64,000 nt of DNA from Roseiflexus sp. RS-1 (GCF_000016665.1 NC_009523.1:1-64000), one strand, 5' to 3'; counted from the stretch's first letter, positions 29,106 through 43,312 are shown. Made by a program: numbers and translations. Notes: generated from the letters alone by a model not told the origin.

Positions 29106-30236
29106 ATGAAACGGTTTACGGCAATTCTTATGCTCTGCCTGAGCGCTCTGATCCTACCGCAGGCTGTGTCTGCCAGCAATCAGGAGCGTTGCTTCCGCGA
29201 AACCGGTTACTGCATCTCCGGACCGATTCTGCGTTACTGGGAGCGAAACGGTGGTCTGAGCACCTTTGGTTTCCCGATCAGCAATCAGGGGATGCAGATG
29301 GCGGAGGATCGGATGTTGCAGGCGCAATGGTTTGAGCGTGATCGCCTGGAGATCCAGGCGGATGGGCGAGTCACCGCCGGACGCCTTGGCGCGCGCTACC
29401 TGGAATTGCAGGACCGCCCCTGGCAGACATTCCCGACCGTCGACCAGGCAGATCCGGGGTGCGCATATTTTGCCATCACCCGTCATCAGGTGTGCGAGCC
29501 ATTCCTGACGTACTGGCGCACCCGCGGCGGTCTGGAGCGGTTCGGATATCCGATCACCGAACGCATACGCGAAGAGATTGAGGGCAAGGTTTATGAGGTA
29601 CAATACTTTGAACGCCGACGGATGGAATTCCACCCTGAACTTGCTGGCACCCCTTATGAAGTGCTGTTGGGGCGGTTAGGGGTGGAAGTCATGCGCATCG
29701 ACGGTTGCGTTTCCCTTGAGCCGATGTATGAACCGACCGCTTACGCCTACCGGCGATTGCTCGGATGTCCGATAGCATCGTCGCGTGAACTGGTCAGTCC
29801 GACCGGTCCGGTTCAACTGAGGATGCGCCCTGTACCGCTTGCCGTTCAGCGTTTCGAGCGTGGCGTCATGCTATGGACGCGACGCTGGGGCGACGTGCCG
29901 GTCCCCAGCGAAATCTTCGTTCTCACCTCCAGTTCGACCGATCCGCAACGTTTTACCTGGCAGATGTTCGCCGACGAATGGACAGAAGGAACACCCATAC
30001 GATTCAGCGAAACGCCGCCTCCTGGACGGTATGTGCCTGAACGTGGGTTTGGCTATGTATGGGTGCATAATGCGGAGGTGCGTTCGCGTTTGGGGTGGGC
30101 GATTGAACCGGAACAGGGCGAAACAGGGGGACACCGGCAGTTTCAGCGTGGTTTTATGATAACCCGCCCCTCAAACGATACGGTGTTCATCATTCTTGAT
30201 GGGGGCGAAGCGCTCGTGGTACCGCGCAAGAACTGA
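29106..30236 (+). CDS. Secreted protein with YW-x3-GGL-x2-FG-x-PI repeats, unknown function
   Basis: A 376-residue exported protein: signal peptide about 1-24 (LCLSALILPQAVSA). Two clear repeats of about 100 residues follow, each with a hydrophobic core such as ILRYWERNGGLSTFGFPIS and FLTYWRTRGGLERFGYPIT, each followed by a QWFER/QYFER-R-MEFH strand and LLGRLG/RLGARYLE. Such repeats are frequent in exported Chloroflexota proteins; their ligand is not known to me. Four cysteines at the repeat borders may form disulfides. The stop codon lies inside the first unit of the 7-bp array that follows. Confidence 0.75.
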   Translation: MKRFTAILMLCLSALILPQAVSASNQERCFRETGYCISGPILRYWERNGGLSTFGFPISNQGMQMAEDRMLQAQWFERDRLEIQADGRVTAGRLGARYLELQDRPWQTFPTVDQADPGCAYFAITRHQVCEPFLTYWRTRGGLERFGYPITERIREEIEGKVYEVQYFERRRMEFHPELAGTPYEVLLGRLGVEVMRIDGCVSLEPMYEPTAYAYRRLLGCPIASSRELVSPTGPVQLRMRPVPLAVQRFERGVMLWTRRWGDVPVPSEIFVLTSSSTDPQRFTWQMFADEWTEGTPIRFSETPPPGRYVPERGFGYVWVHNAEVRSRLGWAIEPEQGETGGHRQFQRGFMITRPSNDTVFIILDGGEALVVPRKN

Positions 30237-30502
30237 GGACTGAGGACTGAGAACTGAGAACCAAGAACCAAGAACCAAGAACCGAGAACCGAGAACCGAG
30301 GACTGAGAACCGAGGACTGAGAACCGAGGACTGAGAACTGAGAACCGAGGACTGAGAACCGAGGACTGAGAACCAAGAACCGAAAACCAAGAACCGAGAA
30401 CCGAGGACTGAGAACTGAGAACCAAGAACCGAGAACCAAGAACCGAGAACCGAGAACTGAGAACTGAGAACCAAGAACCAAGAACCGAGAACTGAGAACC
30501 GG
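30230..30502. repeat. 39-unit heptanucleotide tandem array (GAACYRA/GGACTGA)
   Basis: Units such as GAACCGA, GAACCAA, GAACTGA and GGACTGA follow each other in exact 7-bp register from 30,230 to 30,502 (273 bp). The unit start at 30,482 is exactly 36 x 7 from 30,230, so no indels accumulated. The array begins at the stop codon of the secreted protein gene. Open frames seen here on the minus strand are a by-product of the repeat. Confidence 0.9.
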
Positions 30503-30575
30503 GGACGTCGGCTGTCTTACGCCTGTTATCTTTCACCTCTTCCCCAAGACCCTTGAGGTCGGGCGACGTCCCCGG
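30499..30575. repeat. Inverted repeat between the two tandem arrays
   Basis: CCGGGGACGTC (30,499-30,509) and GACGTCCCCGG (30,565-30,575) form a perfect 11-bp inverted repeat around a 55-nt spacer. It may bound a small element or act as a terminator for the secreted protein gene. Confidence 0.5.
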
Positions 30576-30577
30576 AA

Positions 30578-30945
30578 TGGGCGCGGCTCCTTCGGCAAGC
30601 GACATTCAACGACAGGAACCGCCTCCACGGCAAAGACCGCAAGCATCGGAGACCTTCAGCCCGCACTCACAGAATGAGCGCGCCCCCTTCGGCAAGCGAC
30701 ATTCAACGACAGGAACCGCCTCCACGGCAAAGACCGCAAGCATCGGAGACCTTCAGCCCGCACTCACAGAATGAGCGCGCCCTCTTCGGCAAGCGACGCT
30801 CGCCCCCAGGAACTACCTCCACGGCAAAGACCGCAAGCATCGGAGACCTTCAGCCCGCACTCACAGAATGAGCGCGCCCTCTTCGGCAAGCGACGTTCGC
30901 CCCCAGGAACTACCTCCACGGCAAAGACCGCAAGCATTGGGGACG
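30578..30945. repeat. 97-bp direct tandem repeat, about 3.7 copies
   Basis: The segment beginning GCGCGGCTCCTTCGGCAAGC recurs every 97 bp (the TTCGGCAAGCGAC core at 30,591, 30,688, 30,785 and 30,882). Copies 1-2 and 3-4 are pairwise most alike (ACATTCAACGACAGG versus ACGCTCGCCCCCAGG), indicating a two-step duplication. No protein-coding signal is convincing. Confidence 0.85.
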
Positions 30946-31022
30946 TTCAACCTTCAACCTTCAACCTTCAACCTTCAACCTTCAACCTTCAACCTTCAAC
31001 CTTCAACCTTCAACCCTCAACC
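30946..31022. repeat. Heptanucleotide tandem array TTCAACC (11 units)
   Basis: Eleven 7-bp units of TTCAACC (the last CTCAACC) in perfect register end 17 bp before the stop of the STAS gene. It is the complement of GGTTGAA found at 20,603 and 43,184. Together with the preceding repeats it fills the 802-bp gap 30,237-31,038. Confidence 0.88.
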
Positions 31023-31038: not shown

Positions 31039-31383
31039 CTACCGATACGCAGCGAGATCACGCTCCTCGATGGGGGGCATATAGCGCGACATCTCGACCA
31101 TCTTGAAGACCTTCTGATGGTGCGGGGTCACATTCATGGCGTACAGGGTATAGCCCGATTTCTTTGCCGACACGACAAACTTGAGCAGCGCCGAGATGCC
31201 TGCTGAGTTGATAAATGCCACATTTGCAAAATCGAGCACCGTGATCGGGCGCATGGCAGTTGCTGTTGCGACTGCCTCAATTGCGCTGGCCGACACGGCA
31301 TCGACGCTATTGGTCATTATGTGGAGCACCGCGACATCGCCAAACTCCTCACGGCGGATCACTTCGTTCGTTTCATTCGTCAT
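31039..31383 (-). CDS. STAS-domain anti-sigma-factor antagonist (SpoIIAA/RsbV-like)
   Basis: A 114-residue single STAS domain. Strand VAVLHIMTN, then TVLDFANVAFINSAGISALL with Ser60 at the position phosphorylated in SpoIIAA/RsbV. In partner switching, the unphosphorylated form binds the anti-sigma kinase and releases its target; the SpoIIE-type phosphatase reactivates it. The RsbW-type kinase gene overlaps its start by 11 nt and the phosphatase is two genes further up, so the whole switch is in one operon. The final target (sigma factor or other) is not in the window. Confidence 0.92.
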   Translation of the reverse strand: MTNETNEVIRREEFGDVAVLHIMTNSVDAVSASAIEAVATATAMRPITVLDFANVAFINSAGISALLKFVVSAKKSGYTLYAMNVTPHHQKVFKMVEMSRYMPPIEERDLAAYR

Positions 31384-31807
31384 GGTCCTGGTTCCTCCGA
31401 TAGAGACGTAGTGTCAGTGTTGTACCCGACTGTGACGAATTGACCTCGCAATCATCAACCAGTGCGCTGATCAGATACATGCCAAAGCCGCGATGCATGC
31501 CGGCATCGAGATTCTGCTCATCGACGACTTTCCGCGAGAAATCGATGGTATCGATGCCTCCGCCCTCATCGGTGACGTGCACCTCGAGTTTATCGTTATG
31601 GAGCGCAAAGACAACCTCCACCAGTTTACCGGGCTGACGCTTATTGCCATGGTCGATCGCATTGTTCACCGCCTCGCTCACCGCCAGTTTCAGATCCTCG
31701 ACCCGTTCGGCGCTGAACCCCAGCGCACGTCCGACCTCATCGGCGCTGGCGCGGACGACGCGCTCAAAAATCGGCACAGACGGAATATTTACAAGAACCT
31801 GCTGCAT
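31373..31807 (-). CDS. RsbW/SpoIIAB-like ATP-binding anti-sigma kinase
   Basis: A 144-residue GHKL ATPase-type protein with N-box EAVNNAIDHGN, G1 DEGGGID and G2 RGFGMYLI. It would phosphorylate the STAS antagonist encoded immediately downstream (11-nt overlap) and sequester a target when the antagonist is phosphorylated. AAGGAG precedes the ATG at 31807. No sigma factor gene is adjacent, which leaves the output open. Confidence 0.92.
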   Translation of the reverse strand: MQQVLVNIPSVPIFERVVRASADEVGRALGFSAERVEDLKLAVSEAVNNAIDHGNKRQPGKLVEVVFALHNDKLEVHVTDEGGGIDTIDFSRKVVDEQNLDAGMHRGFGMYLISALVDDCEVNSSQSGTTLTLRLYRRNQDHDE

Positions 31808-31828
31808 GGACCCGTTACTCCTTGCAAT

Positions 31829-33397
31829 TTACGACGACTCTAGCATGCCGACAGTGCGCTGGCGCATGGTCCGGCGCGTCACAGGCGCACTCGACTGTTC
31901 CTGGCTCGCCAGGTAGTCGTAGCGCCTGAGATACGCCTTGCCAAGCGATGTATTGCCAATCTGAAGGTACGAAGCGCCGAGATAATAGAGCGCCTGCACG
32001 TGGCGCGGATTGCGACGCAGCACTTTTTCAAACAGCGGAATGGCTCGCGCCGGTTCCATCAGTTCTTTGTAGCACAATCCGAGCATAAAGTTCGTCTCGA
32101 CATCATCGGGCCAGAACTGGAGCACGCGGGCAAACTCTTTTGCTGCCAGGTCATAGCGGTTGCGTCGCACGTACATGTAGCCAAGGTCGTAGCGCAGAGA
32201 ATGCGCGTCCGGAGCGAGTTCCACTGCCTTGCGCCAGGCTGCCAGCGCCCATCCCTCGCGTCCCATGAGGTTGTACATAAACCCCAGCAGGTAGTGCGCC
32301 TGCGGATCGTTGGGGAGCAGTTGCACGGCGCGCTCAAACGCTTTGACAGCGCCAGCGTGTTTGTTCATATCGTAGAGCAACTTACCCATATTCAGGAACA
32401 ACTGACCATTGGTCGGGTGCAGTTTGGCGCACTCGAACAGGGTATCATACGCCTCGCGCATCTTGTTCTGAAGTTTGAGGATCGCGCTGATCCGAATGCG
32501 CGCATCGACGTAATATCTGTCCTGTGGCGGAATCTGGGCATACGCTTCAAGCGCTTCATCGAGACGCCGCGCGCGCGCCAGCAGATTGCCGAGCAGATAA
32601 CGGGCATAATGTTCTTCGGGACGCCACTGGAGCAGCGCGCGGTAGATCCGTTCCGCCTCTTCCTCGTACCCCTGCTGTTTCAGATCGTTGCTGAGGCGGT
32701 AGTACCATTGGGCGACTTCCTCTTCCGAGCGGTTGACCAGCACCTCGTCCTGCAATTCTGGCGAGACGAAGGTCGGCTCGACGCGCAGCGCCTCGGCAAA
32801 GCAACGCTGCGCCAGTTCGTGCGCGCCGTGGCTCTGGTGCATCAATCCCATGTAGTAGCGCGGCTCTGCGGCCTGCGGGCGCGCCTGACACGCCTGATCG
32901 TAGTGAATGTACGCGCGACCGGCATCATCGAGGCGCTGATAGCAGCGTCCCAGTGAGAAGTGCGCCTCGTACAGGCGCGGATTGTGTTCGATGGCTTCCT
33001 TGAATGCGGCAATCGCGCGGTCGAGCCGCCCCTGCGCCGCAAATGCCACCCCCAGGTTGTAGTGCGCCTCAGCCAGTTGCGGATCGGTCTGCACGGCTTC
33101 GAGATACTCGCGCAGCGCCCCTTCCCAATCCTCCTGATACGCCAGCGCATTGCCGATGTACAGATAGATGATCGCCCGTTCGCGATCATAAATCTGAGCG
33201 CGTTCTTCACCTTCGATGTATGCAGCGATCAAAGCGGCTTTGAAATGCTCGATCGCATTGGCGTAGTCAGCGCGCAGGTAGGCGCGGATACCCTGACCGA
33301 ACGCCGCGCCCAGGCGCGTTCCAGCCATGAATCGCTCGCTCCCGCTGAACGTGTCCAGATCGAGCGGCATGAAATTGAGCGGTTCTGTCGAACTCAT
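31829..33397 (-). CDS. Multi-TPR protein in the signalling operon
   Basis: A 522-residue protein almost entirely of tetratricopeptide repeats (about eleven), e.g. AYQEDWEGALREYLEAV, LAEAHYNLGVAFAAQG, YEAHFSLGRCYQRL and VQALYYLGASYLQIG. TPRs form a superhelical protein-binding surface. No signal peptide or membrane span. It sits between the RsbW kinase and the SpoIIE-type phosphatase on the same strand with 21- and 108-bp gaps, so it may scaffold or gate the partner switch. The CheR homologue upstream also carries TPRs. Confidence 0.9.
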   Translation of the reverse strand: MSSTEPLNFMPLDLDTFSGSERFMAGTRLGAAFGQGIRAYLRADYANAIEHFKAALIAAYIEGEERAQIYDRERAIIYLYIGNALAYQEDWEGALREYLEAVQTDPQLAEAHYNLGVAFAAQGRLDRAIAAFKEAIEHNPRLYEAHFSLGRCYQRLDDAGRAYIHYDQACQARPQAAEPRYYMGLMHQSHGAHELAQRCFAEALRVEPTFVSPELQDEVLVNRSEEEVAQWYYRLSNDLKQQGYEEEAERIYRALLQWRPEEHYARYLLGNLLARARRLDEALEAYAQIPPQDRYYVDARIRISAILKLQNKMREAYDTLFECAKLHPTNGQLFLNMGKLLYDMNKHAGAVKAFERAVQLLPNDPQAHYLLGFMYNLMGREGWALAAWRKAVELAPDAHSLRYDLGYMYVRRNRYDLAAKEFARVLQFWPDDVETNFMLGLCYKELMEPARAIPLFEKVLRRNPRHVQALYYLGASYLQIGNTSLGKAYLRRYDYLASQEQSSAPVTRRTMRQRTVGMLESS

Positions 33398-33505
33398 CGT
33401 CTACCTGTGCCCTTCACCAGTCGGCGTGTGCACGTCGCTCCAGATCGACGCTTATTCTATTCTACTATGAACCCTTTCGTTATTGAAAGACGACTCGATT
33501 GCAGT

Positions 33506-34603
33506 TTAGTAGCGCATTGGTCCATATTTTTTCATGATTCGGTATTCTTCGAGCGTCAGACGGATCTGCGCGTTCAACTCGCGCGCCAGACCGCGCCCGA
33601 AACGACTCTGCACCGCTTTGACGATCTCCGGCAAGGCTTCCGTCCAGGCATCGGCGCCTTCGTGGTCATCGGGGCGCGGCAACGTCTCCCAGGCCTGCCC
33701 GGCGCGATCATCACCCAGGACATCGCGGAGAATGCTGTACAACTCATCGGCGAGTCGCTCGAACCGTCGTCGCACCGCCACAACGGTAATATCGTCATCC
33801 TGACCGGCGTCGCTCCAGGCGCGCAGTTCGTGCAGCAACCGTGCAACCAGGGCACGCGGCTTCAGGGTTGCGCTTTCGATCAACAGTCGCTCCAACCGCT
33901 CGTACCCGAAGTATTCGCCCCTGCTATTTGTCGCCTCGACCACGCCATCGGTGTACATCATCACCGTGGCGCCCGGTTCGATATCGGCGCATATCTCTTC
34001 GTAATCAACATCGTCATCGACGCCAAGCGGCAATCCTGAGAGTTCCAGTTCGCTGACGCGCCCGTTGAGCAGCAGCGGATAATGATGCCCGGCATTCGCC
34101 ACCTGCACAATACCGTGGCGCAGATCGAGCACGGCATACAGCATGGTGATCATGCCCTGTGGAATGTCGGCGATGATCCCGCGATTAACGTCCGCAAGCG
34201 TCGGACCGGGTGTTGCGCCGCGCCGGGCGGCATAGCGAAACACGGTACGCGCGACGGCCATACGGAGGGCTGCTGGCAACCCTTTTCCTGAAACATCGCC
34301 GATCATGATCCCGTGGCGTTCCTCACCGAGCGGCAAAAAATCGTACAGGTCGCCTCCCAGATCGCGCGCTGGCAGCGAAATGGCGTGAATTTCCCATCCT
34401 GGCAGGCGTGGCACCGCTTCGAGCAGTAACCCTTGTTGAATATCACGCGCCAGGAGCAGTTCGTGCTCGATTTCCGCCTGACGACGCGCTTCCTCCGGGG
34501 TGAGCCGCGGCTGTGCAGGTCGCTCCCTGCGGCGCAGTCGACCGGTCGCTGCGTGACTGAGCAGCGTGAAGCGGTGAAAAGGTCGTTTGCGTTGACTTCG
34601 CAT
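33506..34603 (-). CDS. SpoIIE/RsbU-type PP2C phosphatase
   Basis: A 365-residue protein with a short N-terminal coiled coil (EEARRQAEIEHELLLARDIQQGLL, positions about 38-60) and a PPM/PP2C catalytic domain: RDLGGDLYDF, GDVSGKGLPAAL, MYTDGVVEATN and DDDITVVAV supply the metal-binding aspartates. It should dephosphorylate the STAS antagonist encoded two genes downstream. A further ~95-residue helical C-terminal region follows the domain. It lacks an N-terminal PAS/GAF/REC sensor, so its input must come from elsewhere, plausibly the chemosensory proteins of the same operon. The gap to cheR is 6 nt. Confidence 0.92.
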   Translation of the reverse strand: MRSQRKRPFHRFTLLSHAATGRLRRRERPAQPRLTPEEARRQAEIEHELLLARDIQQGLLLEAVPRLPGWEIHAISLPARDLGGDLYDFLPLGEERHGIMIGDVSGKGLPAALRMAVARTVFRYAARRGATPGPTLADVNRGIIADIPQGMITMLYAVLDLRHGIVQVANAGHHYPLLLNGRVSELELSGLPLGVDDDVDYEEICADIEPGATVMMYTDGVVEATNSRGEYFGYERLERLLIESATLKPRALVARLLHELRAWSDAGQDDDITVVAVRRRFERLADELYSILRDVLGDDRAGQAWETLPRPDDHEGADAWTEALPEIVKAVQSRFGRGLARELNAQIRLTLEEYRIMKKYGPMRY

Positions 34604-34609
34604 AGCGTT

Positions 34610-36118
34610 CTATGTCTCGAGCGATGCCAGGTGCTGCTCACACGTGGCGCGCAACCAACCAACCTCAACGCCTTCGAGGAGATCCTCCGCACGGTACGCT
34701 GCCAGTTTGCGCAGCGCGCTGCGAAATTCACGGGCAGCCAGTTCCTTCTTTCCCGCCTGACGGTATGCCATCGCCAGATGGTAGGAAACCAGCGCGGCGT
34801 CAGGATTCAGGTAGCGCGCCCGTTCGAGCGACTGAATGGCGTCGTGCCACTGACCCTGCCGCACATACATGGTTCCAAGCAAAAGGTAGGCATCGTCGCG
34901 CAATGCATCGATTTCGAGAGCACGGCGTACCTCCGCAATCGCCAGATCGAGTTCGCCACGGTTAGCGTGCACCCGCGCCACCAGCGTCAGCGCACGCGGC
35001 GCCAGCGATGAGTTGGGAGGAATGGTGCGCAAGACCTCCATTGCATCATCGAGCCTGCCAGCGTCGAGCAATGCCTGCGCCCGATCAAGATGATCGGCGT
35101 CGGCATTGGATGAGGTTGGTTTGGGCGTGATCGGCGCAATCGGAGACCGTCGTCCGTGCGAAGCGGTGCGCGGCGTGGCAGTGACCGGTGTCAGGCGCTG
35201 CGGCGCCTCCGCCGTTGTCGCCGGTTGACGCGACTCAGTGCGGCGCTGCAACGGCGAGGGCGGACGTTCAACCTTCTGGTAGACATACGCGCCCGACACT
35301 TCACGTGAGCGAAATCCGTCGAAGACATTCCAGAGCGTCTCTGAAAAACCGAGAAACAGCAACCCGTGGGACGGCAGACAGCGATAGAAGCGCTCGATCA
35401 GTGACCGCCGCGTTTCCGGTTGAAAGTAGATCGTCACATTCTGGCAGAAAATGGCATCGACCCGGTATGCCGTTGGTGGAAACGGTTCGAGGAGGTTCAA
35501 CTGCTCGAAGTGCACCAGCGCCCGCACGGCATCCGCGACGAGAAAGCCGTCGCCGCGTTTCACAAAATAGCGACTGAGTAGCGACGGGGCGACGTTGTTA
35601 AGCGAACGACCGCGATAGAATCCGGCGCGCGCTTTTTCGAGCGCCAGATCACTGAGATCTGTCGCCCAGATCTCCACCGGTCGAATCATCGTCGACCCAA
35701 ATGTTTCCAGCGCAGTGATTGCCAGCGAATACGCCTCCTCACCGGTTGCGCACCCGGCGCTCCAGATGCGGATCGGCTCACCGGCGGGCTTGCGACGGTG
35801 CATCTCGAACAGCAGCGTATCGCGCAACGCCTTCATATGCGGAGCATTGCGAAAGAAGCAGGTTTCGTGGTTGACGACCAACTCCGTCAGACGTTGCAAC
35901 TCGTCTCGACCCGCAGGTGCAGTGATGCGACGCTCATACGCTTCGAGCGTTTCTTCCAGCGCTGCCAGGCGTTGCGCCAGACCGGACTCCAGCACCCGTT
36001 GCTGCGCTGTGTCGAGGTAGACGCCGCTGTAATCCGCCAGCAGGTTGCGCAAACGATCAAACGCTTCCTGCGATAGACGCACCGGCGGAGGAAGAAAGAG
36101 ATCGTGCGCTGCGCTCAT
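34610..36118 (-). CDS. cheR: CheR-type chemoreceptor methyltransferase with C-terminal TPRs
   Basis: About 502 residues. The N-terminal CheR domains (1-270) include RLRNLLADYSGVYLD, FFRNAPHMKALRD and the SAM-binding IWSAGCATGEEAYSLA, then FCQNVTIYFQ and LFLGFSETLW. A Ser/Pro/Thr-rich linker follows, then three to four TPRs (LDAGRLDDAMEVL, ANRGELDLAIAEVR, YVRQGQWHDAIQSL). CheR-TPR fusions (CheR2-like) occur in chemosensory systems not linked to flagella. It methylates glutamates of the MCP using SAM. Start ATG 36118 is chosen (MSAAHDLF); extension to 36238 would cross the parS site upstream. Confidence 0.92.
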   Translation of the reverse strand: MSAAHDLFLPPPVRLSQEAFDRLRNLLADYSGVYLDTAQQRVLESGLAQRLAALEETLEAYERRITAPAGRDELQRLTELVVNHETCFFRNAPHMKALRDTLLFEMHRRKPAGEPIRIWSAGCATGEEAYSLAITALETFGSTMIRPVEIWATDLSDLALEKARAGFYRGRSLNNVAPSLLSRYFVKRGDGFLVADAVRALVHFEQLNLLEPFPPTAYRVDAIFCQNVTIYFQPETRRSLIERFYRCLPSHGLLFLGFSETLWNVFDGFRSREVSGAYVYQKVERPPSPLQRRTESRQPATTAEAPQRLTPVTATPRTASHGRRSPIAPITPKPTSSNADADHLDRAQALLDAGRLDDAMEVLRTIPPNSSLAPRALTLVARVHANRGELDLAIAEVRRALEIDALRDDAYLLLGTMYVRQGQWHDAIQSLERARYLNPDAALVSYHLAMAYRQAGKKELAAREFRSALRKLAAYRAEDLLEGVEVGWLRATCEQHLASLET

Positions 36119-36172
36119 ACAAACCGCCTGATCATCGTGACTGAACGTTCCGAAGCCTGTGCAACGTTCCTG

Positions 36173-36188
36173 TGTTTCACGTGAAACA
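36173..36188. promoter_or_regulatory. parS: parS site (ParB binding palindrome), copy 1
   Basis: TGTTTCACGTGAAACA is a perfect 16-bp palindrome matching the universal bacterial parS consensus. It lies in the 187-bp cheB-cheR gap, ~36 kb from oriC, as expected for origin-proximal parS clusters. A second identical site is at 55,495. Confidence 0.93.
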
Positions 36189-36305
36189 CGCTCTCCAGAC
36201 CTTTCGTTCCTGCATCGCTTCTGCCATATGTTGCGCACAGCAGACGCTTGCGACGATCGAGCAGGATGCTCCTTCGCCCTGTTGCGACGCTCAACAATGG
36301 GATCT

Positions 36306-37454
36306 TCAACCGTTCACCTTGAAACCCATACTCGCCACCAGTTCAACCAATCGTGGCGCAATCGCGGTCGGCGGCAATACCTCCCGCACTGCACCAAGCT
36401 GAATGGCTGCACGCGGCATGCCAGAGATCGCGCAACTCGCCTCGTCCTGCGCAATTGTGTAGGCGTTACGACGGTAGAGCGACAACATTCCATACGCCCC
36501 ATCGCGTCCCATGCCGGTCAGCAGCACACCGATCGCGCGCGATCCGTACACATCGGCAATCGCCTGCATGGTAATATCAATCGACGGGCGTTGCATTAGC
36601 AACGGTGCATCGCTCAGGTGGATCGTTCCCTGGTGCGTCACCAGCAGGTTGCGCCGGTCAGGCGCAATCAGCGCTTTCCCCGGTCGCACCGGCGCTCCCT
36701 CCTGCGCAATCTGCACCGGCAGCGTACCGGCGCTCGCCAGCCATTCAGCCATTCCGTCGCTGAACCCTTCTGCAATATGCTGCACAATCAGTACAGCCGC
36801 CGGAAATGATCGCGGCAATCCGGCAATGATCTGATGGATGATCCGTGGACCGCCGGTGCTGGCGCCGATGACGACGACCGGACAGAGCGAAGCGTCGGAC
36901 GCATTGGCCGATGCTGGAATGGACGCTGGCGTGATCGCAGGATGCGGTGGTGCTTCCGGTGGCAGCGCCTGATGGTCGAGCGACGCTGGCGGCGACGGTG
37001 ATCCATCGTTGAGAGCGCGGCGGCGACCGCGCAGATGGGTCACAACCTTGACGCGCGACAGGATTTTGACGCGCCTCACCAGATCGCGCGCGGCGTGTTC
37101 AAGCGCCTGCGGGTCGCTGCCGCGCGGTTTCTCGACCACTTCGAGCGCACCGGCGCCGAGCATCTTGAAGGTGATGTCCACATCATAACTGGCAAGCGAT
37201 GCCGTCAGCACCAGAATCGGCGTGGGACAATACGCCATCAGATGTTCGGTCGTGGCCACCCCATCCATCACCGGCATGCGTACATCCATCGTCACAACAT
37301 CGGGGCGCAACTGCTGCACCAACTCAATCGCCTCACGTCCGTTCGACGCCACGCCGACAACCTGGATGGCAGGATCGCGTTGCAGCATGTCGGTGATGAA
37401 ACGCCGCATCATGGCAGAGTCGTCAACAACGACGACACGGATGGGTCTGGTCAT
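36306..37454 (-). CDS. cheB: Chemotaxis methylesterase/response regulator CheB
   Basis: A 382-residue protein-glutamate methylesterase. The receiver domain has the acidic pair DDS near 11-13, phospho-acceptor Asp57 in TMDVRMPVMDG and the conserved lysine in VVEKPRG. A Pro/Ala-rich linker follows, then the esterase domain with the catalytic serine in GASTGGP, histidine in VQHIAEGFSDGMAEWL and aspartate in TGMGRDGA. It removes methyl groups from the MCP, opposing CheR. It lies between the lone receiver gene and cheR in the same operon. Confidence 0.97.
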   Translation of the reverse strand: MTRPIRVVVVDDSAMMRRFITDMLQRDPAIQVVGVASNGREAIELVQQLRPDVVTMDVRMPVMDGVATTEHLMAYCPTPILVLTASLASYDVDITFKMLGAGALEVVEKPRGSDPQALEHAARDLVRRVKILSRVKVVTHLRGRRRALNDGSPSPPASLDHQALPPEAPPHPAITPASIPASANASDASLCPVVVIGASTGGPRIIHQIIAGLPRSFPAAVLIVQHIAEGFSDGMAEWLASAGTLPVQIAQEGAPVRPGKALIAPDRRNLLVTHQGTIHLSDAPLLMQRPSIDITMQAIADVYGSRAIGVLLTGMGRDGAYGMLSLYRRNAYTIAQDEASCAISGMPRAAIQLGAVREVLPPTAIAPRLVELVASMGFKVNG

Positions 37455-37619
37455 GCGTCAACTCATTTCGTCTCAACGAAAACGACACGCGATAACAGAA
37501 CCTGCGTGCATGCCAGAAAGCCGCCGATTGCTCCGGCGGCGCATCTCTGAAACCCAGGATATGCCACTGGTGTATGCGCTGCACGGCATCCGAACGGTGC
37601 CGCCCCGATACCGCACGTG

Positions 37620-37982
37620 CTAGTCCATCTCCAGGATCATCTTGACCCGATTGGGAAGATTAAGGAGATCAACATCTTTGTTCAGGTAGTCATCGACGCC
37701 TGCCTCGAATGCTGCGTGCTTGTCGTCACTCGAGGTCAGCATAATGATGCGCAGATCATCGAATGCCGGATTATCGCGCAACCGGCGACAGACTTCGTAC
37801 CCGTCAATCCCCGGCATATGGACGTCGAGCACCAGCAGATCCGGCACTTCTTCCTCAATCGCTTTGAGCGCTTCTTCGCCGCTATGCGCCAGTCGCACCT
37901 CGTAGCCGTACATGCCAAGCCGCATCTTGACAATATCGGTGACCAGTTTGCTATCATCGACGACCAGGATCTTTTCCGCCAT
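37620..37982 (-). CDS. Single-domain response regulator (CheY-like)
   Basis: A 120-residue receiver: KILVVDDSK, phospho-acceptor Asp53 in LVLDVHMPGIDGYE, LTSSDD, and the conserved lysine in YLNKDVD. No output domain. ATG 37982 follows GAGG; a longer start at 38033 adds 17 unrelated residues. Between cheA and cheB, it is the likely diffusible output or phosphate sink for CheA. The lysine context NKD differs from the usual KPF/KPI of motility CheY, fitting PilG/PilH-like or non-flagellar regulators. Confidence 0.93.
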   Translation of the reverse strand: MAEKILVVDDSKLVTDIVKMRLGMYGYEVRLAHSGEEALKAIEEEVPDLLVLDVHMPGIDGYEVCRRLRDNPAFDDLRIIMLTSSDDKHAAFEAGVDDYLNKDVDLLNLPNRVKMILEMD

Positions 37983-38052
37983 AGTAAACCTCGTGTCCTT
38001 TCGCGTCGCAACCGGCTTGTCGGGCCCGAGCAACGATAGAAGACAGGAATGA

Positions 38053-40281
38053 TCACATGCCGATCAACTGCTGGATCGTCTCCAGCAGATTGTTCTGGTT
38101 GAATTGACTTTTGACGATATACGCCTGCGCACCGACTTCCAGCCCTCGCCGACGATGCGCCTCCGACGCGAGACTGGTCACGATAATGACCGGCAGGTCG
38201 GTCTTGCCCAGTTCGCTGCGGATGCGACTGGTCAGGGTGAAGCCGTCCACTCGCGGCATTTCGACATCGCTGACGACGAGATCGTAGGTTTCGGCGCGTA
38301 ACCTGTCAAGCGCATCGAGTCCATCGACGGCGGTCGCCACATCGTATCCGGCGGCGCTCAGAATGCTGCGGATCAATTCGCGAGTGGCGAACGAGTCATC
38401 AACAACCAGCAACCGGGCGCGGCGCCGCGCACTTTGATCCTGTGTCGGCGCGATGAGCGCCGTCCCCCGCCCAAGCTGGATGAGCATCGACGGGTTGAGC
38501 AGCAACGCCAGCCTCCCATCGCCGAGCTGCAGTGCGCCGCTATAGCGGCGCTGCTTCTCCAGCAGCGGTCCCAGCGGTTTGATAACTGCTTCGCGTTCAT
38601 CAACCATACGATCAACCAGCAGCGCCATAGGGCGCCGTGCGCCGCCGACCAGCAGCGCTGGTGCGCGCGTTGCAGCGGCAAACGGGTGACCGTTCGCAAT
38701 TCCCAGCAACTCGTCCAGCCGGAGCAGCGGCGTGAGCGTCTGATGATGCTGGAAGACCGCCCGCCCCTCAACGGTGCGGATCTGATTGCGCCGCACCCAT
38801 ACCGTCCCCTGACATCCAGACGCCGGGAAACCGAACAGTTGACCGCCGGCTTCGATCAGCAGCACCCGCGTGGTGATCAGCGTCAGCGGCAAGGAAAGGG
38901 TCACCTTCGTGCCGATGCCGGGTTGCGACTCGACCTGCACTTCGCCGCCGATGTCGGCAAGATTGGTGCGTACCACGTCCATCCCAACGCCCCGTCCGGA
39001 AACATCGGTGATCAGTTTTGCCGTCGAAAACCCGGGCATGAAGATCAACTCCAGCGCCTCCTGATCCGAGAGCGCGGTTGCAGCTTCGCTGCTGATCAAC
39101 CCTTTGCGCACCGCCGTCTCGCGCAACTGTTGCGGATCCATGCCGCGCCCATCGTCGCGCACCGTAATCAGCACTCTGCCGCCATGCGCCTGCGCTGCGA
39201 TCTCGATCACTCCCTGGCGCGGCTTCCCCAACCGCTCCCGTTCATCAACCGGCTCGATGCCATGGTCGATGGCGTTACGGATGAGATGCACCATCGGATC
39301 GGCGAGCGCTTCGATAACCTTGCGATCCAGTTCGGTCGTTTCACCCGCCAGCAACAACGTCGCTTCCTTGCCAAGATCGCGCGCCAGTTCACGCACGGCT
39401 CGCGGAAGGTTGGCGTAGAGAGTGGAAACCGGCGTCAGACGGATCGCCATGACCTCCTGCTCGAGATCGTCGATCAATTGCGCTTTATGGGTATTGTGCT
39501 GTCCGATGCGTTCCAGTTGCATCCGGACGAGCGCGCCGACACGCTCGCCTGCATTGAGTGCGACATTCATTTCGCGATCAAAGAGTTCTCGCTGGGCTGG
39601 CGACAGCCGCATCCGCCGTAATTCCGACTCAAGGGTCAACAGGGCGCGTTGCTGCCGCTCAACAAGCGCTTTCACTTCTTCCAGCGCCTGAAGATGCGCC
39701 TCTTCGATCTGTCTGCCGATCGACAGTTCACCCGCCAGGTTTAGCAACCGATCCAGCCGATCCACCCGCACGCGCACCGTCTGACGCGCCCGTTCGCGCC
39801 CGCCGCGCGGCAGAGATGGCGAGGAACCCTCATCAACCGGCGGGTGTGGTTCAACGAGGGGTGCAACCGGACTTTCGACGGCAGGCGACGGTTGCGGCAA
39901 GCCTCGCCCAAGCCGACTCGTCAGTGCATCAACATCGATTGACGAAGGCTTGCCGTCAATTGCAGCCGCAACCAGTTCCAGGATTGCATCGCTCCCCTTC
40001 AACAGTTCATCGGTCAGAAAACGATCAAGTGAGCGCCGTCCATCACGGACTGCCGCCAGAATGTGTTCGCAGGTGTGCGCCACTTTGCCAACCGCTTCCA
40101 ACCCAAGCATCCGCGCCGAGCCTTTGATCGTGTGCATGGCGCGAAAAATGGCGTCGATCTGCGCACGGCGCGCCTCTCCCTCCAGCCCGTTGTCTTCGAG
40201 CGCCATGAGACCTTCGGTGACAATGCGGATGTTCTCCGCAGTTTCATCACGAAATTGACTGTAGAACGACGCCAGATCCAT
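38053..40281 (-). CDS. cheA: Hybrid chemotaxis kinase CheA with C-terminal receiver
   Basis: A 742-residue histidine kinase. Domains in order: Hpt with His50 in FRAMHTIKGSARML; Pro-rich linker; dimerisation helices (~165-300); GHKL ATPase with N-box HLIRNAIDHG, G1 DDGRGMD and G2 GRGVGMDVV; CheW-like domain (~480-610); receiver with Asp in VVSDVEMPRVDG. No separate CheY/B-binding P2 domain is evident. CheA-REC hybrids (PilL/FrzE/ChpA-like) are common in systems controlling twitching or gliding. The operon has no flagellar genes. The receiver may be a phosphate sink. Confidence 0.96.
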   Translation of the reverse strand: MDLASFYSQFRDETAENIRIVTEGLMALEDNGLEGEARRAQIDAIFRAMHTIKGSARMLGLEAVGKVAHTCEHILAAVRDGRRSLDRFLTDELLKGSDAILELVAAAIDGKPSSIDVDALTSRLGRGLPQPSPAVESPVAPLVEPHPPVDEGSSPSLPRGGRERARQTVRVRVDRLDRLLNLAGELSIGRQIEEAHLQALEEVKALVERQQRALLTLESELRRMRLSPAQRELFDREMNVALNAGERVGALVRMQLERIGQHNTHKAQLIDDLEQEVMAIRLTPVSTLYANLPRAVRELARDLGKEATLLLAGETTELDRKVIEALADPMVHLIRNAIDHGIEPVDERERLGKPRQGVIEIAAQAHGGRVLITVRDDGRGMDPQQLRETAVRKGLISSEAATALSDQEALELIFMPGFSTAKLITDVSGRGVGMDVVRTNLADIGGEVQVESQPGIGTKVTLSLPLTLITTRVLLIEAGGQLFGFPASGCQGTVWVRRNQIRTVEGRAVFQHHQTLTPLLRLDELLGIANGHPFAAATRAPALLVGGARRPMALLVDRMVDEREAVIKPLGPLLEKQRRYSGALQLGDGRLALLLNPSMLIQLGRGTALIAPTQDQSARRRARLLVVDDSFATRELIRSILSAAGYDVATAVDGLDALDRLRAETYDLVVSDVEMPRVDGFTLTSRIRSELGKTDLPVIIVTSLASEAHRRRGLEVGAQAYIVKSQFNQNNLLETIQQLIGM

Positions 40282-40341
40282 AGATGTGAAGCATACCGTT
40301 GGAGTTCATCCGATGTCCCGACCAGACATTCGCATCCCGAC

Positions 40342-41859
40342 TCAGGCCACCCGACCCGCGCCATCCTGTGAAAGTCCATGCAGCCGATTGGCAATCGCAG
40401 TCAGACGTTGGGCAGCGTCCTGCACCTGACGCGCACCGGCAGCGGTGCGACGCGCCACGTCGGCGATCTCGCGCATGGTTTCCACCACCTGCTCACTGGC
40501 GCTCTGCTGTTGTGCAGTCGCCAGATTGATCTCGGCGCTGCTCTGGGCAGTGCGCTCCGCCGCCATCACAATCACGTCCATCACCTGACCGGCGCTGTGC
40601 GCCAGTTCGACGCCGGCAGCCACTTCTTTGCCGCCTTCCTCCGCCGCCAGCACGGCAGCGTTGGTGGCCTGCTGGATTTCAGCGATCACGCCCTTGACCT
40701 CTTTGGCAGCAACCAGTGCGCGGTTCGCCAGACTTTTGACTTCCGCGGCGACCACGGCGAACCGGCGACCATGCTCACCTGCGCCGGCGGCTTCGATGGC
40801 GGCGTTGAGCGCAAGCAGATGGGTCTCGTCCGAAAGATCGTTGATCAGGTCGATGATTTCGCCGATCTGCTGCGACCGCTCGCCGAGATTCAGCACCCGC
40901 GCCGATACATCCTGCATGCGGCTGCGGATGCGATCCATCGCCTGAATACTTTTATCAACGGCTTCCTGCCCCTCGCTCAGGTTTTCGAGCGTCTGCCGCG
41001 CCGCTTCCGCCACCTGCTCGGCGGCGATGGCGATCTGGCGCGCTGTTGAACCCAATTCTTCAATTGTCGTGCTCACCTGCGATACGGCGCTTGCCTGCTC
41101 GGAAGCCCCGCTCGCCTGTTCGTGCGAGGCGCGCAGCAGTTCAGTCGCGGCTGCCGAGAGTTCGCTTCCCAGTTCGACCTGCTGGATGTTTTTTTCGATC
41201 AGACGCTGGTTGGTTTCATACAACTCTTCCGACTGCGCACGGGTCTGCTCCAGGAAGCGCGTGGTGCTGGTCGACCAGAGCGATGCAACATAGGTGAGCA
41301 ATCCACCGACGCTGGCGAAGAAGATGACGAATGCCACAGTACGCGGCAATCCGGGAACATCGTTCTGTGGTTGCACCACGCCGACGGTTTCGGCAACGGC
41401 GAGAAGCAGGTAGGCAAGCAATGCGACGCCGAACAGGCGAGGACTTTCCGCAGCGCGTCCAAATAGCCCGGCCACGACCACCGGAAACAGAAACGCTATC
41501 CCGGCAGGACCTGTGACTCCGCCACCCAGGTAGATCATGCCGATAACATAGAAGAGTGAACCGTACAAGAAAATATTTGACGCGACTGTCGCCGTGCTGA
41601 GACGCAACGCGCCAAGCGTGCCACCCACGATCACGGCGATCATCGCAATGACCCCGGCTGCTGCACCGACAGCCTGCAGCGGCATAATGCCGACCAGGGC
41701 GAGAACGATGAACAGTATGCTGCCGACACCGGCAACTCCGCCAAACACCATCGTCAGATGGGTCAGTACTCTGGCTCGTTCCTCGTCGTGACTCTGCGGA
41801 TTGGTGATAACGCTTGCAAAGATTTTATGATTCGATGCCTGTTCCATAACGCTGCTCAC
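40342..41859 (-). CDS. Methyl-accepting chemotaxis protein with integral-membrane sensor
   Basis: A 505-residue chemoreceptor. The N-terminal ~190 residues contain about six membrane spans and no sizeable periplasmic ligand domain, so it probably senses within the membrane or its potential. The cytoplasmic part begins with a coiled coil (no HAMP recognised) and has a divergent MCP hairpin tip: IIDLINDLSDETHLLALNAA then EAAGAGEHGRRFAVVAAEV (quoted in pieces). The GTG start at 41859 overlaps the CheW-like stop (GTGA); ATG 41847 is an alternative. It is the only receptor in the cluster. Confidence 0.94.
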   Translation of the reverse strand: MSSVMEQASNHKIFASVITNPQSHDEERARVLTHLTMVFGGVAGVGSILFIVLALVGIMPLQAVGAAAGVIAMIAVIVGGTLGALRLSTATVASNIFLYGSLFYVIGMIYLGGGVTGPAGIAFLFPVVVAGLFGRAAESPRLFGVALLAYLLLAVAETVGVVQPQNDVPGLPRTVAFVIFFASVGGLLTYVASLWSTSTTRFLEQTRAQSEELYETNQRLIEKNIQQVELGSELSAAATELLRASHEQASGASEQASAVSQVSTTIEELGSTARQIAIAAEQVAEAARQTLENLSEGQEAVDKSIQAMDRIRSRMQDVSARVLNLGERSQQIGEIIDLINDLSDETHLLALNAAIEAAGAGEHGRRFAVVAAEVKSLANRALVAAKEVKGVIAEIQQATNAAVLAAEEGGKEVAAGVELAHSAGQVMDVIVMAAERTAQSSAEINLATAQQQSASEQVVETMREIADVARRTAAGARQVQDAAQRLTAIANRLHGLSQDGAGRVA

Positions 41860-42272
41860 TTCTGTTCCGAAGCGTGTGTTCGCTGTAACAAAATGCTGCG
41901 TGCAATCGCCCGCACATCGAGTTGCACGACAGGCTGGTCATTGATCAGCAGGACGCCGGTCGTCCAGGGTTCACGCAACCGCTCGCGCAACAACGGCGGC
42001 AGCGGTTGAACGTCCGCATATTCGACAATCGTATCCACGGCATCGACCAGCAACGCAATGTTGCGCCGTCGCAAGGGAATGATCAATGCGTGCCGCCGCT
42101 GTACCGTGCTGACATCGGCTGGATCGATCAGCGGTCCCAATTCCACAGCGATCACAGAAGGATCGGCGTCTTCCCGCCTCCCGTCGTCGCCTCGCGTCAT
42201 AGCGCGCAGGGTCGCCACATCTTCCCGCCGCACAATATAGCGATGCTGCGCTGTTCGGATGATGAGTAACAT
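41856..42272 (-). CDS. CheW-like domain protein (short)
   Basis: A 138-residue CheW-like coupling protein: LIIRTAQHRYIVRREDVATLR at the N-terminus (in pieces), DPADVSTVQRRHALIIPLRRRNIALLVDAVD in the core, and DQPVVQLDVRAI near the end. It is shorter and more divergent than the CheW at 42,595 and lacks the typical RG-VVPVIDLR block in clear form. ATG 42272 is the first sensible start: upstream are heptanucleotide repeats. It is coupled to the MCP gene by a 4-nt overlap. Confidence 0.82.
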   Translation of the reverse strand: MLLIIRTAQHRYIVRREDVATLRAMTRGDDGRREDADPSVIAVELGPLIDPADVSTVQRRHALIIPLRRRNIALLVDAVDTIVEYADVQPLPPLLRERLREPWTTGVLLINDQPVVQLDVRAIARSILLQRTHASEQK

Positions 42273-42291
42273 TTCGAGAACCGAGAACCGA

Positions 42292-42429
42292 GGTAACTGC
42301 TCAGGCGTGCGGTTGAAACCGCGCCTGAGAGGACGCTTCGCGCCGGGCGACCGCCTATGCGGTCGCCGTGGCAGCGTCCACGCAGGTGGACGCCCGGCGA
42401 AAAGTCTTCCAGAGGCGATTTCAATCGCT
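42292..42429. repeat. Hairpin-rich element inside a heptanucleotide array
   Basis: Two GAACCGA units (42,278-42,291) precede and a 17-unit array (from 42,430) follows this 138-bp segment, which has nested hairpins: CTCAGGCG/CGCCTGAG with an inner GCGG-TTGAAA-CCGC, then GGCGACCGC/GCGGTCGCC. The arrangement looks like an element inserted into an older array. Confidence 0.55.
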
Positions 42430-42556
42430 GAACTGAGTAACCGAGAACCAAGAACCAAGAACCAGGAACCGAGAACCGAGAACCGAGAACCAGGAACCAG
42501 GAACCGAGAACCAGGAACCAAGAACCAGGAACCAGGAACCAGGAACTGAGAACTGA
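42430..42556. repeat. Heptanucleotide array GAACCRR between the two cheW-like genes
   Basis: About 17 units (GAACCAA, GAACCAG, GAACCGA, GAACTGA) in 7-bp register from 42,445, with one 8-bp unit near the start. It belongs to the same family as the array at 30,230 and fills the rest of the 322-bp gap 42,273-42,594. Confidence 0.88.
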
Positions 42557-42594
42557 GCGTGGAATATTCACCTTCAACAACCACATGTTCGCCC

Positions 42595-43059
42595 TCAACC
42601 CTCCCGCAGTGCAGCCACGATTTCACCAATGTCGAGCAGCGCTACCGTCTGATCGTTATGGTACGCAACAGCACGGAGGAACCGGGCACGCGCCGGATCA
42701 AGCCCGACCGGCGGTTGACCAAAGGCGTCTGCCGGCAGTGATTCCAGATCGATCACGGCATCGACCAGCAACGCCATACCGATATCGTCGTGCACGACAG
42801 AAATCAGACGGGTCGAGCGAGTTGCTTCGATAGACGGCATTCCCAGAACCAGGCGCAGATCGACAACCGGCAGGATGACGCCACGATGACTGACGATACC
42901 TGGGATCGCCGGCGGCGCACCGGGAACAGGAGTATATGATCGATACCGCCCGACTTCACGAACATGGATTGACGGCAGCGCGTAGATCTCGTCTGCGAGA
43001 CGAAACAGCAGGACATGTTGCTCAGTACGTTCGGCAAGGTCGGGTTGTGCACCTGTCAT
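42595..43059 (-). CDS. cheW: CheW chemotaxis coupling protein
   Basis: A 154-residue CheW with HVLLFRLADEIYALP, the vital APPAIPGIVSHRGVILPVVDLR core and a C-terminal LLVDAVIDLESLP. It bridges receptor and CheA. First gene of the ~12-kb signalling run. ATG 43059 (MTGAQPD) is preferred; TTG 43068 is possible. Upstream lies a GGTTGAA array that separates the operon from the divergent ABC exporter genes. Confidence 0.95.
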   Translation of the reverse strand: MTGAQPDLAERTEQHVLLFRLADEIYALPSIHVREVGRYRSYTPVPGAPPAIPGIVSHRGVILPVVDLRLVLGMPSIEATRSTRLISVVHDDIGMALLVDAVIDLESLPADAFGQPPVGLDPARARFLRAVAYHNDQTVALLDIGEIVAALREG

Positions 43060-43183: not shown

Positions 43184-43312
43184 TTGAAGGTTGAAGGTTG
43201 CAAGGTTGAAGGTTGAAGGTTGCAAGGTTGAAGGTTGAAGGCTGGAACGTTGAAGGTTGAAGGTTGGAAGGTTGAAGGTTGGAAGGTTCAACGTTGAACG
43301 CTCAACGTTCGA
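43184..43312. repeat. GGTTGAA-type short tandem array, irregular (7/8 bp)
   Basis: About 18 units of GGTTGAA, GGTTGCA(A), GGTTGGA(A) with mixed 7- and 8-bp spacing, ending in CAACGTTGAACGCTCAACGTTCG, which can fold back. It lies in the 326-bp divergent gap 43,060-43,385 between cheW and the exporter; no clear promoter was found in the rest. Confidence 0.85.

Follow-up and report, generated by a model that had tools for sequence, protein, structure and literature searches.

A conserved gene block in Roseiflexus sp. RS-1 and its relatives may link a chemosensory system to a partner switch through a lineage-specific TPR protein

Chemosensory arrays that control outputs other than movement are common, and their wiring is rarely known. 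Partner switches most often govern stress responses. For the Bacillus subtilis partner switch RsbU/RsbV/RsbW, the input is RsbT from the stressosome and the target is SigB. RsbU of this species is activated when a partner protein brings its linker into an ordered coiled-coil form, a mechanism that the authors of that study extended to other phosphatases (PMC12143880). The Che1 locus of Shewanella oneidensis holds CrsR and CrsA, which are proposed to control RpoS and not motility (PMC9855816, PMC6482189). In Nostoc, the HmpU-W partner switch and the chemotaxis-like Hmp system contribute to one and the same behaviour; the two are treated as separate systems, direct control was not demonstrated there, and the proposed target of HmpV is an undefined effector (PMC6495340, PMC8256260). 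Possible control of a partner switch by a chemosensory system is already known, with Shewanella Che1-CrsRA and Nostoc Hmp as precedents.

Here, we analyzed a stretch of 64,000 nucleotides (the window) at the beginning of the Roseiflexus sp. RS-1 genome, which is a single contig of 5,801,598 bases. An original prediction, made from the sequence, had placed eleven genes in one direction between 31039 and 43059, and all of them were present on the minus strand (43059 to 31039) in the claimed order, each with a Pfam family match. The chemosensory part, all on the minus strand, starts with cheW for the coupling protein (42595..43059; PF01584, E 2.7e-29) and a divergent cheW-like gene (41856..42272; PF01584, E 2.4e-5), which at 24.4 bits scores barely above the PF01584 cut-off of 23.5 and has a long open reading frame whose upstream portion is derived from repeats. 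These are followed by mcp for a membrane-integral receptor (40342..41859; PF00015, E 2.8e-37), cheA with a C-terminal receiver (38053..40281; Hpt, HATPase_c, CheW, and Response_reg), rec, encoding a stand-alone CheY-like receiver and candidate link to the switch (37620..37982; PF00072, E 4.2e-27), cheB for a methylesterase with a receiver (36306..37454; PF01339 and PF00072), and cheR for a methyltransferase with TPRs (34610..36118; PF01739, E 1.6e-50; TPR models). The starts of cheW, cheW-like, rec, and cheR were corrected with orthologues, to 43059, 42272, 37982, and 36118, respectively. The block holds the components of a CheA-based chemosensory system (MCP, CheW, CheA, CheB, CheR, and a receiver output). 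Within CheA, the Hpt, ATPase, CheW, and REC domains passed their cut-offs while the dimer domain scored slightly below; H50 and D672 are conserved, as are D70 of rec and the catalytic residues of CheB. No flagellar genes were found within the block, which was the region examined. The receptor is single within the cluster and has at least five hydrophobic segments (residues 38-192), as anticipated; it is not single in the genome, where another che cluster is present. That cluster (L053, G000:C1:1212001-1231000) contains cheW, mcp (4HB sensor plus HAMP), cheA-REC, a receiver, cheW, cheB, and cheR, is without a partner switch, and adjoins a sortase-domain gene.

The remaining four genes, also on the minus strand, encode a sensorless SpoIIE/RsbU-type PP2C phosphatase (33506..34603; PF07228, E 6e-49; alignment and structure model), a lineage-specific TPR solenoid protein and candidate bridge (31829..33397; TPR models and alignment), an RsbW-type serine kinase (31373..31807; PF13581, E 7.3e-27; alignment), and an RsbV-like STAS-only protein (31039..31383; PF01740, E 2.6e-7; alignment). 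The partner-switch set of PF07228, PF13581, and PF01740 thus occupies adjacent genes and is conserved order-wide. The two parts, which had been described as fused, are joined as a gene order and in no other sense. The claim that the phosphatase has no sensor domain of its own was borne out, with no recognised sensor in domain searches, alignment, or the structure model. Alignment and model gave a disordered N-terminus, a linker helix (residues 36-60), the PP2C domain, and a conserved helical C-terminus, and the nearest folds to the model were the PP2C domains of SiaA (best), Rv1364c, and RssB. By analogy with RsbU, the input probably reaches this phosphatase at the linker helix. The sister-group phosphatase (L089:5690-7126 and L092:12986-14332) carries an N-terminal multi-helix membrane domain and is without the C-terminal part. 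The metal-binding Asp of the phosphatase and the N and D residues of the kinase are conserved, and Ser60 of the STAS protein, assigned by motif as the phosphorylated serine, is present in 31 of 31 orthologues. Judged from these alignments, the catalytic and phospho-acceptor residues of the partner switch are intact. The kinase matched solved RsbW (E 4e-20), while a PDB sequence search with the STAS profile gave zero matches. A fold search with the TPR model, in which confidence in the overall shape is low (pTM 0.51), returned generic TPR proteins only.

Compared with the systems described above, the block resembles Shewanella Che1-CrsRA in having partner-switch genes inside a che locus. However, CrsR combines receiver, PP2C, and kinase in one protein, whereas these are three separate genes here, and four separate proteins plus the TPR protein would do the work, with no CheD. 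The Hmp and HmpU/W/V systems of Nostoc punctiforme, compared by description and not by sequence, share che-like genes, a separate phosphatase, kinase, and STAS protein, a gliding filament, and a STAS protein that may itself form the output, with a target other than a sigma factor. Nostoc, however, uses type IV pili, whereas Chloroflexales have Tad pili: members of the order glide and have chemoreceptor-like arrays and Tad pili, most type IV pilus genes are missing, and relatives were reported with Tad pili only (PMC7332563). The Pseudomonas HptB-HsbR-HsbA and SiaABC systems likewise combine a STAS-type protein with a PP2C phosphatase under receiver or sensor control, and the PP2C domain of SiaA is the best fold match noted above, but their input is an Hpt protein or a phosphatase-borne sensor, with no chemosensory array and no TPR bridge (PMC6482189, PMC7647112). 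The B. subtilis switch shares the PP2C phosphatase with a linker helix, the GHKL kinase, and the STAS antagonist, but no SigB equivalent passes the curated cut-off here. A literature search, mostly outside subscription journals, found no published description of this block. The new features are wiring by separate proteins, a TPR protein specific to the lineage, conservation of the block over a deep range, and a natural loss that gives a pointer to the interface.

On balance, the eleven genes probably make up one signalling pathway, from MCP through CheA, receiver, TPR protein, and phosphatase to the STAS protein. From the genes, their intact catalytic residues, their linkage, the apparent reliance of the switch genes on the presence of che genes, and the accelerated change in the TPR protein and receiver, all read from sequence, we infer the phosphotransfer, the direction of control, the contacts, and the target within it. 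The membrane receptor and CheW would control CheA, CheR and CheB would adapt the receptor through methylation, and phosphate would pass from CheA to the stand-alone receiver, with CheA's own receiver possibly serving as a brake. The receiver would then act on the sensorless RsbU-type phosphatase, directly or via the TPR protein, most likely at the linker helix. The STAS protein would be phosphorylated by the RsbW-type kinase and dephosphorylated by the phosphatase, and its pairing with RsbW would determine the output.

A class-wide CheA search found orthologues across the order, and 20 surrounding loci were retrieved. In 19 of these, the downstream genes lie in the same order and on the same strand; the cheR and rsbW frames are interrupted in L047, STAS is absent from this place in L048 and L049, and L051 breaks off after cheA. 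An independent contig scan for the TPR protein, using two peptide patterns that more distant relatives could escape, gave 58 loci. The complete run cheA-rec-cheB-cheR-phosphatase-TPR-RsbW-STAS was found in 37 of them, most of the others being cut by contig ends, and cheR-phosphatase-TPR were together in 47. Nearly all 58 were titled Chloroflexota and two were labelled just "bacterium," while one was titled Gracilibacteria and had a TPR protein 82% identical, probably from a mis-binned contig. A profile search for the TPR protein in 400 Chloroflexota genomes gave 39 positives (38 of the order's 40 listed members plus 1 sister-group genome), and by these searches the protein appears lineage-specific, having been found so far only in Chloroflexales and Chloroheliales. 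Receiver genes that follow STAS in many relatives were considered as a further part of the system and rejected as inconsistent: one is a receiver-HD gene, an extra gene intervenes in L044, and they are missing here. In some relatives (as at L036:683-2822), the genes that follow STAS encode a lone receiver and a receiver-HD protein that may be a cyclic-di-GMP phosphodiesterase.

In four genomes of the sister group Chloroheliales (a placement made through L143, Ca. Chloroheliaceae), the order is rsbW-STAS-phosphatase-TPR-cheW-...-cheA-rec-(cheB)-cheR, and RsbW and STAS of this group score well above paralogues in the same searches. In the sister-group cluster at L089:10433-13985, as read from sequence, the gene for a small Hpt-like protein precedes a cheA whose product carries two Hpt-like segments at its N-terminus. 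The block can also be split: the two halves are on two large contigs in G002, of the sister-group family; the break in G046 comes after cheA, with rec-cheB-cheR-phosphatase-TPR-rsbW-STAS still together; and STAS lies about 31 kb away in two Herpetosiphon-type genomes. The original prediction that the che arm might control the switch gains support from this linkage, which persists throughout the order and, in a different arrangement, in the sister group; absence of a genetic link had been named as what would refute it.

Reduced versions were also found. Among 18 genomes tested, switch orthologues occurred only alongside che genes: the switch was present in 11, all with che genes, and the cheA orthologue and all three switch orthologues were absent from 4 (G044, G090, G139, and G141). 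Chloroflexi AL-N1 (L139, apparently G139, to judge by identical match coordinates) has a diverged TPR gene alone (66% identity); orthologues of the receiver, STAS, RsbW, and cheA were looked for in it and not found, which counts against the single-pathway reading. Three Ca. Chloroploca genomes have kept the che genes and the TPR protein and lost the phosphatase, RsbW, and STAS orthologues.

We used this loss to compare branch lengths gene by gene among 31 taxa on a fixed tree from five che proteins. On the Chloroploca stem, the ratio of observed branch length to that expected from MCP, CheA, CheB, and CheR was 3.3 for the TPR protein and 3.0 for the receiver; the four reference proteins were themselves at 0.8-1.2. 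The stem was the most over-long of 39 branches for the TPR protein; for the receiver it ranked second of 39, with z about 1 and another deep branch still longer. Among sites conserved in 95% or more of the other taxa, Chloroploca had changed 25/231 in the TPR protein (Fisher p = 2.7e-9) and 7/71 in the receiver (p = 1.2e-4; mostly conservative changes), compared with 4/463 in MCP (0/138), CheA (2/156), CheB (1/82), and CheR (1/87). The TPR changes were concentrated in residues 1-238 (21/25, p = 0.0012). When all clades of up to five taxa were taken as a control, only a distant outgroup exceeded Chloroploca in TPR changes (37/245), and this outgroup had changed elsewhere too (35/462). After switch loss, the TPR protein and, less strongly, the receiver thus changed fast, while MCP, CheA, CheB, and CheR did not, again in favor of control by the che arm. 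The simplest reading of these sequence changes is that the TPR protein, above all through its N-terminal half, is turned toward the switch, as the receiver probably is too; coming from one event in one genus, tested after being noticed, this is a strong hint and no proof.

Chloroploca also bears on two other explanations. The che genes and the switch could be parallel modules, with the che arm steering gliding via the receiver, the switch having an input of its own, and the operon being shared because both serve surface behaviour. Chloroploca retains che and TPR without the switch, which fits this and indicates that the che arm has an additional output, and Chloroflexales do glide and have receptor-like arrays (PMC7332563). 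However, the phosphatase is without a sensor domain, the receiver and TPR protein change fast upon switch loss while the four core che proteins do not, and in the 18 genomes the switch was never found without che, so that we regard this explanation as rather unlikely. The control could also run in reverse, from the switch to the che arm, for example if unphosphorylated STAS or RsbW influenced CheA, CheR, or the motility machinery via the TPR protein. There are STAS proteins that act on something other than a sigma factor, HmpV with its undefined target being one (PMC6495340, PMC8256260), and the TPR protein stays with che after switch loss. On the other hand, Chloroploca CheA, CheR, CheB, and MCP show no relaxation, and the Chloroflexales phosphatase, having no input domain, needs a signal from elsewhere; a reversed direction therefore seems improbable.

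The genes had been described as mostly separated by short gaps with several overlaps. In this genome, two overlaps (cheW-like/mcp, 4 bp; rsbW/STAS, 11 bp) and a border of 6 bp between cheR and the phosphatase, where the che genes meet the switch genes, agree with this, but the other gaps are 60-322 bp, the largest being that between the two cheW genes. That gap contains a 7-bp tandem-repeat array (42439-42546); similar arrays lie upstream of the block (43184-43298) and downstream of STAS (30946-31022 and 30229-30501), and a 97-bp unit is repeated at 30575-30949. In the relative L059, the successive borders from cheA to rsbW are 3, -4, -4, -8, -4, and -4 bp, and these six short or overlapping borders suggest translational coupling across the border between che and switch genes. 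Signals in a promoter and terminator scan of the block were at or below chance, and two gaps, one of 108 bp ahead of the TPR gene and one of 165 bp, leave space for internal promoters; the block is presumably cotranscribed. A chance neighbourhood in one genome, without functional meaning, is hardly credible, for although some gaps here reach 60-322 bp and the promoter and terminator scans were uninformative, dozens of genomes share the same block and the sister group has it in another gene order, which refutes it.

For the pathway from receptor to STAS protein, the target had been expected to be encoded elsewhere, and indeed the block holds no sigma gene or obvious target. Searching 13 genomes for SigB/F/G-type sigma factors (TIGR02980, cut-off 234 bits) gave none above the cut-off, the best match in this genome scoring 147 bits, while a B. 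subtilis-type control passed. Several other sigma-70 family members are present. Since no SigB/F/G-type factor reached the cut-off, a sigma factor of a different type or a protein that is no sigma factor is the probable target, and a link of the output to the surface behaviour of the filaments is plausible. More tentatively, the pathway could be specific to Chloroflexota, with the TPR solenoid turning phosphorylation of a CheY-like receiver into control of the phosphatase, and with the STAS protein itself, and not a sigma factor, being the output on gliding or multicellular behaviour. The stronger conservation of STAS relative to RsbW was considered as a sign of STAS output and rejected, as a second partner switch in the same genomes shows the same pattern. 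This second conserved switch (L157, G000:C1:4137953-4139218) combines one STAS protein with a tandem pair of RsbW-type kinases; G046 and Chloroploca appear to lack one kinase of the pair.

About 60 related genomes and one natural switch loss single out two proteins, the TPR protein and the small receiver, as the candidate connection. Receptor-like arrays have been seen by cryo-electron tomography in gliding filamentous Chloroflexota (PMC7332563), and, if true, the pathway described here would be the first proposed output for a chemosensory system in these organisms.
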